From positions 1-32,441 of the forward strand of contig CAITYM010000049.1 of the NCBI GenBank assembly GCA_903896615.1: 32,441 bases of DNA, read 5' to 3'. The translations under genes were made by a program, and so were the position numbers. Source of the stretch: an uncultured Burkholderiales bacterium (GTDB lineage Bacteria > Pseudomonadota > Gammaproteobacteria > Burkholderiales > Burkholderiaceae_C). Under the pieces are notes generated by a model. It saw only the letters and a program-made list of their open reading frames with translations, was not told the DNA's origin and searched no databases. The first letter of the stretch is position 1, and each line of letters starts with the position of its first letter. Positions 8,410-11,305 of the stretch are shown here, one piece after another.

Positions 8410-9540
8410 TCAACTCCCTCTTCGCTGTTTGACAGCCTTTGATAAGAGCTCAAGCACGGGGACAGAGTCCTCCCACTTGATACAAGCATCTGTGATGCTT
8501 TGTCCAAAGTTAAGTTTCGCTACATCATCCTTACCAGGCGTGAACTTTTGAGCCCCCTCATTCAGATGGCTCTCAACCATCAGGCCAAAAATCTCCTTAG
8601 ATCCTCCACTTATTTGAGCCGCGATATCTTTCGCAACTTCTATTTGTTTGATGTGCTGTTTGCTGCTATTGGCGTGTGAGCAATCCACCATCAAGCTAGG
8701 TGTTAATTTAGCCTGGACCAACTCAGCACAAGCTACGCCCACACTTTGCTTGTCATAATTAGGAGCCTTACCGCCTCTCAAAATGACGTGACAGTCTGGG
8801 TTGCCCACTGTTTGAACAATCGCGACTTGTCCGTTTTTGTGAACAGATAAAAAGTTGTGTCCCCTTGACGCCGCTTGTATTGCATCGGTTGCAATTTTGA
8901 TATTTCCATCAGTACCGTTTTTAAAACCAATCGGCGCCGATAGCCCAGAGGCCAACTCCCGGTGCACCTGGCTCTCCGTAGTCCTCGCCCCTATTGCGCC
9001 CCAACTAATTAAGTCGCCAATGTATTGAGGGGAGATTACATCCAAGAACTCACTCCCTGCAGGCAACCCTAGGCGGTTGATCTCAATGAGGAGTTGACGC
9101 GCGATGCGAAGTCCCTCATCAATTTTAAAACTCTCATCCAAATATGGATCGTTGATGAGTCCCTTCCAACCCACAGTGGTTCTGGGTTTTTCGAAATAAA
9201 CGCGCATCACGATCTCTAATGTATCTTTAAAGCGCTCGCGCTCTATGACAAGCCGTCTCGCATACTCTAGCGCTGCTGCGGGATCATGAATAGAGCAAGG
9301 CCCCATCACCACCAACAAACGGTCGTCCTCTCCGTGCATGATGCGGTTGATGCTGCGCCGTGTATGGGTGATCAGTTCTTCAACCGGAGTTCCAAGAATA
9401 GGAAAGAAGCGGATCAAATGCTCGGGAGGAGGTAAGACTGTAATGTCTTTGATTCGCTCATCATCTGCATGGCTGGTCTTATCGATGGGCTGTGGGTTTA
9501 CCAATGAATGCACTTGTACGGGAGGGTTAGGGGTGGTCAT
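8410..9540 (-). CDS. aroG: 3-deoxy-7-phosphoheptulonate (DAHP) synthase, class I
   Basis: The enzyme condenses phosphoenolpyruvate and erythrose 4-phosphate, the first shikimate step. The 376-residue protein is the AroF/G/H type: LLVVMGPCSIHDP, the MRVYFEKPRTTVGWKGLINDP block, the GARTTESQ loop, ILRGGKAPNY and the metal-site VDCSHANS are all present. It is about 25 residues longer than E. coli AroG, mainly at the disordered N-terminus. Whether it is Phe- or Tyr-inhibited cannot be told from sequence, but its leader encodes a Phe/Tyr-rich peptide with an attenuator (9628-9754), which suggests control by both. AAGG lies about 13 nt upstream of the ATG, a loose Shine-Dalgarno. Confidence 0.95.
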   Translation of the reverse strand: MTTPNPPVQVHSLVNPQPIDKTSHADDERIKDITVLPPPEHLIRFFPILGTPVEELITHTRRSINRIMHGEDDRLLVVMGPCSIHDPAAALEYARRLVIERERFKDTLEIVMRVYFEKPRTTVGWKGLINDPYLDESFKIDEGLRIARQLLIEINRLGLPAGSEFLDVISPQYIGDLISWGAIGARTTESQVHRELASGLSAPIGFKNGTDGNIKIATDAIQAASRGHNFLSVHKNGQVAIVQTVGNPDCHVILRGGKAPNYDKQSVGVACAELVQAKLTPSLMVDCSHANSSKQHIKQIEVAKDIAAQISGGSKEIFGLMVESHLNEGAQKFTPGKDDVAKLNFGQSITDACIKWEDSVPVLELLSKAVKQRRGS

Positions 9541-9627: not shown

Positions 9628-9655
9628 AAAAAAAAACCGCCTCTGCTGGGGCGGT
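9628..9655 (-). terminator. Intrinsic terminator of the aroG attenuator (segments 3:4)
   Basis: On the minus strand ACCGCC (9655-9650) pairs with GGCGGT (9641-9636), enclosing a short loop, and nine T follow directly (9636-9628). It stands 87 bp upstream of aroG and 30 nt after the leader peptide stop. Its 5' arm overlaps the antiterminator arm at 9651-9657, so the two structures exclude each other. Confidence 0.85.
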
Positions 9656-9718
9656 CGTTTAGGAGTTCAAAGTGCTAAGGGACTTTTAAACCTCTCGACC
9701 GCTCGCAGAGCGTGAGAA
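9651..9718 (-). promoter_or_regulatory. Attenuator hairpins of aroG: 1:2 anti-antiterminator and 2:3 antiterminator
   Basis: Segment 1, CGCTC (9712-9708), pairs with GAGCG (9704-9700) across a 3-nt loop; outer TCTC and GAGA extend this 1:2 hairpin. Segment 2, GCGGTCG (9702-9696), is perfectly complementary over 7 nt to segment 3, CGACCGC (9657-9651), giving the antiterminator. Segment 3 also forms the terminator stem. Segment 1 begins 3 nt after the last Phe codon of the leader peptide (9716-9718). A ribosome stalled on the Phe/Tyr codons would mask segment 1 and favour 2:3, while free translation favours termination. The rest of the 304-bp tldD-aroG gap holds a possible -35 (TTGTCA, 9823-9818) with only a weak -10, and a repeated GCAACATTCA near aroG. 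Confidence 0.8.
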
Positions 9719-9754
9719 ATAAAAGTAGCCAAAAAAGAACTTTGAACCTTTCAT
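9686..9754 (-). CDS. Phe/Tyr-rich leader peptide of aroG
   Basis: This 22-codon open frame (ATG 9754-9752, TAA 9688-9686) contains the run FFFGYFYF at codons 6-13: five Phe and two Tyr in eight residues. It ends within the attenuator and is followed by the terminator before aroG. The logic matches enterobacterial pheL-type leaders, but the sequence differs and includes Tyr. No clear Shine-Dalgarno precedes the ATG. A 6-codon frame (ATG 9771-9769) ends with TGA overlapping this start as ATGA, and AAGG (9785-9782) lies 10 nt before that upstream ATG. The peptide might therefore be translated by coupling. Confidence 0.8.
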   Translation of the reverse strand: MKGSKFFFGYFYFSRSASGREV

Positions 9755-9844
9755 GAATGAAACTGTACCATAAATTTCAGGCCTTATTTGCAACTAATGG
9801 TCACAATTCAAAGAAGCTGACAATTGGCATTAGTGCTAGAAGGC

Positions 9845-11305
9845 TTAAGCCGTTCCCCCAACTGTCAGTCCATCTATACGCAGTGTCGGTTGACCCACAC
9901 CCACTGGAACACTTTGTCCCTCCTTACCGCAGGTCCCAACTCCGCTATCAAGTGCCATATCGTTACCGATCAAACTCACCCTTGTTAGCGCGTCAGGACC
10001 GTTACCCACTAAGGTAGCGCCTTTGATGGGGTAGAGTAATTTACCGTTCTCAACCCACCAAGCCTGGCTTGCGGAGAAGACGAATTTACCCGATGTGATA
10101 TCGACCTGTCCACCACCAAAGTTACTTGCGTAAACGCCTTTTTTAACACTGGCAATGATCTCCTCGGGCGTTTTGTCACCTGCGAGCATATAAGTGTTTG
10201 TCATTCTAGGCATGGGCACATGCGCATAACTCTCACGTCGACCGTTACCGGTTGGCGCAACCCCCATTAATCTCGCGTTCATGTTGTCTTGAATGTAGCC
10301 CTTTAAGATACCGTCCTCAATCAAGACATTTCGTTGAGTGGTGTTACCTTCATCATCGACATTCAAGGAGCCTCTGCGGTCTGACAAGGTACCGTCATCA
10401 AGGACTGTCACGCCTTTGGAGGCCACTCGCTGACCAATACGCCCCGCAAAAGCACTTGAGCCTTTGCGGTTAAAGTCGCCCTCCAAGCCGTGTCCAATAG
10501 CTTCGTGCAACAAAATGCCTGGCCAACCTGAACCAAGCACAACAGTCATCTCACCAGCAGGGGCTGCTTGCGCTTGCAAATTAGTAATCGCCGCTTGAAC
10601 AGCCTCATCAACATACTTCTCAAGCATTCCTTGATCAAAGTATGCCAATCCAAATCGGCCCCCGCCGCCGGAGGAGCCGACTTCACGTCTTGCTCCTTGC
10701 TCAGCGATGACCGACAAGCTCAGGCGAACCAAAGGGCGCACATCTGCTGCAAGCAATCCATCAGCGCGTGCGACCATCACTACGTCATATTCACTAGCCA
10801 AACCAGCCATCACCTGAACGATGCGCGGGTCCTTTGCACGGGCCATCTTCTCTATTCGCTCGAGTAACTGTACCTTGTCCGCACTCCCCAAGCTTGCTAT
10901 GGGATCTTGGTCTAAGTACAGACTCCGGGTCGCGGGGATGCTTTGCTTTGGAATTTGAACGCTTCGCTCTTGCCCGGCATGTGCGATGGTCCTCACTGTG
11001 TTGGCAGCATCCATGAGTGCGTGCATTGAAATGTCATCCGAGTAGGCAAAAGCAGTCTTCTCCCCACTCACAGCCCTAACACCCACACCTTGGTCAATAC
11101 TGAAGGATCCGGTCTTAACGATGCCCTCCTCTAAGCTCCACCCCTCGGAGCGCGTGTACTGAAAATAAAGATCAGCATCATCGACTCGGTGCGCACGAAT
11201 TTGGGCAAGCGCACGGCTCAAATGCGATTCGTCTAAACCGTAAGGTTCTAGTAATAATCGACGTGCTATGGATAAGCGTTCTAAGGTGGGTTCTCTTGAG
11301 ATCAT
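9845..11305 (-). CDS. tldD: TldD metalloprotease subunit
   Basis: TldD forms a heterodimeric zinc protease with TldE (PmbA) that degrades unstructured peptides and matures microcin B17 and CcdA-like substrates in E. coli. The 486-residue protein carries the metal-binding HEAIGHGLEGD motif at 267-277 and the family blocks GSSGGGGRFGLAYF and GWPGILLHE. The C-terminal region contains the conserved GNGRRESYAHVPMPRMTNTY sequence. Length is normal. In other Burkholderiales tldD commonly precedes aroG, as here. The usual upstream neighbours (nitrilase, YhdP, glnE) are not present; a dehydrogenase gene lies upstream instead. Confidence 0.95.
   Translation of the reverse strand: MISREPTLERLSIARRLLLEPYGLDESHLSRALAQIRAHRVDDADLYFQYTRSEGWSLEEGIVKTGSFSIDQGVGVRAVSGEKTAFAYSDDISMHALMDAANTVRTIAHAGQERSVQIPKQSIPATRSLYLDQDPIASLGSADKVQLLERIEKMARAKDPRIVQVMAGLASEYDVVMVARADGLLAADVRPLVRLSLSVIAEQGARREVGSSGGGGRFGLAYFDQGMLEKYVDEAVQAAITNLQAQAAPAGEMTVVLGSGWPGILLHEAIGHGLEGDFNRKGSSAFAGRIGQRVASKGVTVLDDGTLSDRRGSLNVDDEGNTTQRNVLIEDGILKGYIQDNMNARLMGVAPTGNGRRESYAHVPMPRMTNTYMLAGDKTPEEIIASVKKGVYASNFGGGQVDITSGKFVFSASQAWWVENGKLLYPIKGATLVGNGPDALTRVSLIGNDMALDSGVGTCGKEGQSVPVGVGQPTLRIDGLTVGGTA

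Follow-up and report, generated by a model that had tools for sequence, protein, structure and literature searches.

The aroG gene of an uncultured Burkholderiales bacterium, which encodes the first enzyme of the shikimate pathway, is very probably controlled by a ribosome-mediated transcription attenuator. The window, i.e., the whole stretch of 32,441 nucleotides that was analysed (contig CAITYM010000049.1), carries on its minus strand tldD (end at 9845), an extended -10 box, a short leader reading frame, an intrinsic terminator, and aroG (start at 9540), in this order. The anatomy of the element, its conservation, the spacing from the promoter-like box to the ATG, and the mutually exclusive pairings with their energies are matters of observation. 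The proposal matters in that it describes how a large bacterial family would govern the entry step of aromatic amino acid synthesis: the charged tRNAs of two or three aromatic amino acids would be read together. The coordinates of the features are collected in Table 1.

Table 1. Features of the aroG leader region (window positions) and the evidence for each
Feature	Positions	Strand	Evidence
Extended -10 promoter-like element TGGTACAGT	9762..9770	-	TGnTAnnnT; 7 nt upstream of the leader ATG
Leader ORF MKGSKFFFGYFYFSRSASGREV, stop TAA	9686..9754	-	Reading frame of 22 codons; 139 distinct loci with an aromatic leader
Control codons FFFGYFYF (5 Phe, 2 Tyr)	9716..9739	-	Simulated stall on any of the 7 aromatic codons favours the antiterminator
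Segment 1 core CGCTC	9708..9712	-	Pairing in the window; pair counts among relatives
Segment 2	9696..9704	-	GAGCG is the partner of segment 1 and GCGGTCG that of segment 3; motif kept when the leader frame shifts
Segment 3 CGACCGC	9651..9657	-	Common to antiterminator and terminator
Intrinsic terminator stem-loop, segments 3:4	9635..9656	-	Folding; 95.8 percent of stem cells paired among 77 loci
Nine-T terminator tail	9628..9636	-	Sequence
aroG, DAHP synthase, regulated gene in the proposed model	8410..9540	-	TIGR00034, 528.8 bits (cut-off 173.2)

The sequence-only reading of this DNA had described a 22-codon FFFGYFYF leader upstream of aroG, and the leader was recovered exactly, base for base. 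The pairing of CGCTC with GAGCG (9704-9700) is also present as claimed, and the 1:2 hairpin proved larger than claimed, extended by the pairing of AUUUCUC with GAGAGGU. The same reading had placed a perfect 7-nt antiterminator between GCGGTCG (9702-9696) and CGACCGC, a terminator ending in nine T, a third segment common to both structures, and a gap of 3 nt between the last Phe codon and the start of segment 1; all of these stand. The window thus shows the parts of an attenuator, i.e., a short upstream ORF with a cluster of codons for products of the pathway, an intrinsic terminator between the leader and aroG, an antiterminator that shares the 5' arm of the terminator, and, overlapping the arm of the antiterminator, a 1:2 protector. 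A further possible pairing was noted in the window, between GGUUCAAAGU (codons 3-6) and ACUUUGAACU located 3' of the stop codon (9664-9748, minus strand). It is the dominant feature when the whole leader is folded to minimum energy; by eye, the nearest relatives (L083 and L087) have kept it only in part.

Folded alone, the antiterminator piece (9713-9650) has an energy of -20.2 kcal/mol, the 1:2 hairpin piece (9727-9686) of -12.0 kcal/mol, and the terminator piece (9665-9628) of -11.6 kcal/mol; the fold of the whole leader has a z-score of -3.15 against 200 shuffles. Ribosome stalling was simulated by trimming the RNA at its 5' end to mimic the part taken up by a ribosome, with an assumed footprint of 12 nt from the first base of the stalled codon. 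The probability of the terminator is 0.99 without a ribosome (0.91 with a second set of pairs), falls to between 0.00 and 0.14 when the free RNA starts at nucleotides 27 to 51, and rises to between 0.89 and 1.00 from nucleotide 54 on, where the free RNA starts inside segment 2. All seven aromatic codons are located in the antitermination zone (0.0 to 0.13 with the second set of pairs). The simulated switch point lies between Ser14 and Arg15, with termination once the ribosome has passed Ser14.

From here we infer the events in the cell, namely transcription start, stalling, termination, and the signal amino acids, which would act via their charged tRNAs. RNA polymerase, directed by the extended -10 box, would begin its transcript with the leader AUG or right beside it, so that the ribosome would load on a 5'-terminal AUG without a Shine-Dalgarno site. 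When charged tRNA-Phe or tRNA-Tyr is short, the ribosome would stall on FFFGYFYF and cover segment 1, segments 2 and 3 would pair, and transcription would continue into aroG; in most relatives outside the genus, a shortage of tRNA-Trp would be a signal as well. When charged tRNA is plentiful, the ribosome would reach the stop codon and cover segment 2, the 3:4 terminator would form, and an RNA of about 127 nt would be released. If the leader is not translated, the 1:2 hairpin would form, and termination would follow too.

The distribution of the element was examined in a set drawn from the best 80 AroG loci among named contigs and from the genus of the window, in which aroG is present in 78 of 84 genomes. 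An aromatic leader, defined by at least four Phe, Tyr, or Trp in nine codons, precedes aroG in 144 of 156 loci. Of the other 12, three have truncated flanks and four are second copies of aroG; the rest come from Polynucleobacter (four) and Cupriavidus (one). Removal of four duplicates and of L133, which has a GTG start, left 139 distinct loci including the window, and 130 of these leaders contain at least five aromatic residues in nine codons. One locus in the set lies on a contig labelled Solimonas (L064), where a similar leader precedes an AroG 78 percent identical to that of the window. Solimonas is a gammaproteobacterium, and the leader at this locus may reflect transfer, mislabelling, or shared ancestry.

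A covariance model was then built from the 77 sequences of alignment A1, out of 137 prepared sequences. It matched 289 of the 299 genomes searched in the family and 137 of 141 genera, some of these genomes possibly being sources of the model itself. In the genome of the window, this locus scores 95.1 bits; a second copy of the element was sought there as well, and only weak matches, at most 20.9 bits, were found beyond this locus. Judged by its sequence, the element is family-wide and not a lone one. The model also matched 74 of 300 order genomes, nine of which belong to the family of the window, and 8 of 229 class genomes, three of which belong to it. All of the 29 order-level matches examined besides the window (eight from its own family) precede an aroG homologue, with 57 to 82 percent identity. 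Among the five class-level matches outside the family, two precede aroG; the other three (L193, L194, L195) have no aroG in the locus and were set aside as probable chance matches.

A strict rule, requiring an ORF with at least five aromatic residues in nine codons followed by a hairpin and a T-run, was applied outside the family to 86 of the best 92 places. It was satisfied at 25 of the 86 aroG loci (18 among the 26 closer ones, 7 among the 60 that are more distant), and the element therefore appears patchy beyond the family. The remaining 61 loci did not satisfy it; these include L243, where the leader is present and the terminator is absent by the rule, and among the six places left of the 92, genomes G443 and G489 have matches to the covariance model. 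No sequence passed the strict rule among 1280 shuffled upstream regions and 64 reverse complements, and one reverse complement passed at the relaxed threshold of four in nine. Together with the presence of an aromatic leader at 139 distinct aroG loci, these controls bear out the earlier judgement that such geometry is hard to get by chance. Since the leader frame and the pairings are kept in close relatives and beyond, the earlier reading of the element as an attenuator is also supported.

Over the 139 leaders, Phe is encoded by TTT 441 times and by TTC 190 times, Tyr by TAC 112 times and by TAT 101 times, and Trp by TGG 75 times. The use of both synonyms indicates that the aromatic codons, not their letters, are kept. 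Segment 2 behaves differently, its motif being kept as letters: the leader reads through it in the usual frame at 121 loci and in another frame at 14 (unrecognised at four), and the leader stop codon falls inside segment 2 in 8 of 135 loci. The layout in alignment A1 is common to the window, Variovorax (L005), and Polynucleobacter (L066).

The choice of amino acids varies among the relatives. Phe, Tyr, and Trp codons occur together in 63 of 70 leaders outside the genus of the window vs. 7 of 69 inside, with L006, L025, and L039 counted inside because they are identical in sequence to loci of the genus. In 56 of the leaders outside, Phe comes immediately after Trp, close to where the block ends. 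The usual form thus looks like a three-way sensor, a sensible ancestral form for an enzyme common to three pathways. The genus of the window seems to have mostly replaced Trp, the direction of change being our reading of the codon patterns. The earlier description as a Phe/Tyr attenuator therefore holds for the window and needs amendment for the element at large, as the commonest form outside the genus adds Trp. The coexistence of Phe/Tyr/Trp and Phe/Tyr forms among relatives offers a natural experiment in the choice of signals by attenuators.

We also sought whether the pairings of the three stems are under constraint. In the terminator, 10 cells are changed on both sides, and these double changes exceed the shuffled and all slid controls. 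The 1:2 stem was aligned in two registers sharing an outer helix, each with five pairs changed on both sides; the covariation of the first register is 0.132 vs. at most 0.109 in slid controls, and that of the second (0.060) is below slid controls of up to 0.090. The cells of the 2:3 helix are 72.2 percent paired, mostly through invariance, and a slid control reaches the same covariation score. When arms were swapped between loci, the own 2:3 pairs beat the swapped ones in 1089 of 2055 comparisons within the family and 225 of 375 within the order, a weak result, and the own 3:4 pairs won in 1258 of 2055 and 341 of 375, respectively. One column was followed through segments 2, 3, and 4: among 23 order-level loci with the motif, it reads T-A-T in 11 and C-G-C in 6, and among 120 family loci, C-G-C in 79, T-G-C in 10, and A-G-C, which breaks 2:3, in 17, counts that are inflated by kinship, several of the order-level loci coming from one genus. 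The sequence-only reading had proposed a comparison of related loci for conserved codons and compensatory changes in the three stems; the leader frame, the aromatic codons, and the changes in the terminator and the 1:2 stem came out in its favor, and compensatory change in 2:3 is weak.

The exclusive pairings are mostly present in the relatives, where the simulated switch is less clear. In the equilibrium fold of the full RNA, the terminator probability drops below 0.5 for any aromatic stall in 27 of 138 loci, or for 99 of 864 aromatic stalls, vs. 9 of 414 in shuffled controls. Equilibrium switching thus failed as a general proof in relatives. In most of them the terminator remains the preferred fold of the full RNA while a ribosome is stalled, so the switch there would have to be kinetic. 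When the RNA was halted before segment 4, segment 3 was sequestered in 820 of 864 aromatic stalls; 137 of 138 loci have at least one aromatic stall that sequesters it, a ribosome placed on the stop codon does so in 2 of 138, and sequestration exceeds 0.5 without a ribosome in 57 of 138. This test agrees with a switch better than the equilibrium test does, and its shuffled control is high, with sequestration above 0.5 in 258 of 414 maxima. Locus L023, which has no recognised T-run, was left out of both tests. By these measures, the leader in the window is a cleaner switch than many leaders of its relatives.

At 136 of 139 loci, the sequence TGnTAnnnT occurs 6-8 nt upstream of the ATG that opens the leader, and none of the 1501 further ATGs in these regions has it. 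The count for the leaders is favoured by taking the second ATG in eight loci beginning MPM, MRM, or MKM. No consensus -35 box was seen upstream of the leaders. A Shine-Dalgarno-like sequence precedes 1 of 139 leaders vs. at least one candidate aroG start in 112 of 134 loci. With an extended -10 box at a fixed distance of 6-8 nt, the leader ORF of the family is probably leaderless, transcription being predicted to start at or next to its ATG. The box is present in some order-level loci and absent in others, thus we restrict the claim of a leaderless start to the family.

Several other explanations were considered. The tldD gene (668.9 bits, cut-off 513) ends just upstream on the same strand and is located upstream in 123 of the 139 leader loci, as would be expected if the terminator only ended the tldD transcript and the Phe/Tyr-rich frame were a chance ORF. 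At the other 16 leader loci, however, tldD was not seen in the examined flank, and in four Polynucleobacter loci (L068, L069, L072, L080) aroG directly follows tldD with no leader and no intergenic T-run. The leader therefore goes with aroG. This independence from tldD, together with the promoter-like box at fixed spacing and the failure of every shuffled region under the strict rule, led us to reject the explanation, to which we assign hardly any probability. Two other Polynucleobacter loci (L066, L071) carry the full element, and the leader has apparently been lost or gained within this genus. A switch between the two folds by a protein or ligand instead of a ribosome draws on the fact that alternative folds exist without a ribosome. 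The conserved sensor, however, is a run of in-frame aromatic codons with synonymous exchange, and no Rfam family matches, so we regard this explanation, too, as extremely improbable.

Two further explanations were weighed. Leaderless, about 127 nt long, and ending in a terminator, the short mRNA predicted here resembles rnTrpL in layout as described in PMC7298713, so the released RNA or its peptide might be a trans-acting regulator, like rnTrpL/peTrpL of Sinorhizobium, with or without attenuation. The C-terminus of the peptide is not kept as protein, given the loci noted above with another frame or with the stop inside segment 2, and conservation falls on the parts required for attenuation; we consider a trans role quite improbable. 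It is also conceivable, if unlikely, that the leader senses nothing but Phe or the general speed of translation, the Tyr codons being passengers. Phe is indeed the commonest aromatic codon (631 Phe, 213 Tyr, and 75 Trp in total), but Tyr is found in 131 of 139 leaders, and a simulated stall on either Tyr codon of the window leads to antitermination.

The gene downstream of the attenuator scores below the cut-off of a narrower model, NF006723 (533 bits vs. 568), in addition to its clear match to the DAHP synthase family. A second DAHP synthase gene is present elsewhere in the genome of the window (L155, contig C48); its product is 56 percent identical to AroG, and it has no aromatic leader.

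Rfam 15 gave no match at the curated gathering score in the window, nor in 11 loci comprising that of the window, eight relatives with an aroG leader, and two leuA loci. A known Rfam RNA was rejected as an identity, the best sub-threshold match being nse_sRNA with 21.7 bits vs. 75. Vitreschak et al. (2004) reportedly carried out a comparative survey of proteobacterial attenuators. Among the matches listed in open-licence PubMed Central, no aroG attenuator of Burkholderiales was recognised; an earlier description is possible, in that survey or as the motif 'Burkholderiales-1' listed by Weinberg et al. 2010. The nearest precedent, compared by description only, is the aroR leader of Corynebacterium glutamicum, which contains Phe-Tyr-Phe, precedes the DAHP synthase gene aroF, and is reported to raise transcription upon ribosome stalling (Neshat et al. 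2014, cited in PMC11802643; PMC4046766). The sequence-only reading knew of no Phe/Tyr leader on a betaproteobacterial aroG; within the literature covered this stands for Burkholderiales, and a DAHP synthase gene of Corynebacterium does have one. Both systems place a short Phe/Tyr leader before a DAHP synthase gene. They differ in phylum, in the block of the window, where seven of eight codons are aromatic, in the Trp codons usual in relatives outside the genus, and in the wide occurrence of our element in its family.

In E. coli, the pheL-pheA and pheST attenuators use terminator and antiterminator folds, and pheL has a Shine-Dalgarno site. Both are described as Phe leader-type attenuation in PMC11802643, a likeness to our element. 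Unlike them, the window leader precedes aroG, at the common step, and not pheA or pheST; it adds Tyr codons (and Trp in relatives) and has no Shine-Dalgarno site. In enterobacterial ilvGMEDA and thrABC, a single leader responds to more than one end product of a common pathway, as would be the case here, although with branched-chain or Thr/Ile codons there and aromatic codons here. The trpLE(G) attenuator RNA of Sinorhizobium meliloti, rnTrpL, starts at the leader ATG, and both rnTrpL and peTrpL are reported as trans-acting regulators (PMC7298713). Our attenuator RNA is likewise predicted to begin at the ATG of the leader frame; rnTrpL differs, by that account, as a Trp leader with trpE as target, in an alphaproteobacterium, and with its reported trans role. 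The element is widespread and, it appears, uncatalogued, and the three-way codons in relatives and the probable leaderless start are its notable traits.

A related leader was observed upstream of leuA in the genome of the window (L315, contig C151). There, the Leu leader MNISLALLLLRHSGRVE starts six bases after TGTTAAAGT, looks leaderless, and is followed by a GGCCCG/CGGGCC terminator. The covariance model found a second match in 18 family genomes. Of the 12 matches examined, one (L214) is a second aroG and eleven precede leuA homologues with Leu-rich leaders (nine by script and two by eye). Compared with LeuA of this genome, nine of the eleven homologues are 81 to 86 percent identical and two are distant, at 26 to 27 percent. 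The leuA leader is a putative sibling Leu attenuator, here and in relatives.

More broadly, Burkholderiales may possess leaderless attenuators of an old class, with the promoter, the start codon, and the sensor combined in a single compact unit, the aroG version reading all three aromatic amino acids and the leuA sibling reading leucine. Such a set may replace the enterobacterial repressors of shikimate entry, with lineages tuning it by gain and loss of Trp codons, as the genus of the window seems to have done. We hold the arguments for and against this broader view to be evenly balanced. If it is true, transcription would start at the AUG, and sensing would begin at nucleotide 1.

Upstream of trpE in the same genome (L318, contig C78), no clear intrinsic terminator was seen. 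A short ORF, MFIHSTTVTGCSYRGAWPWRG, with Trp-Pro-Trp, identified by eye, lies there about eight bases after TTAAACT and is a possible trp leader.
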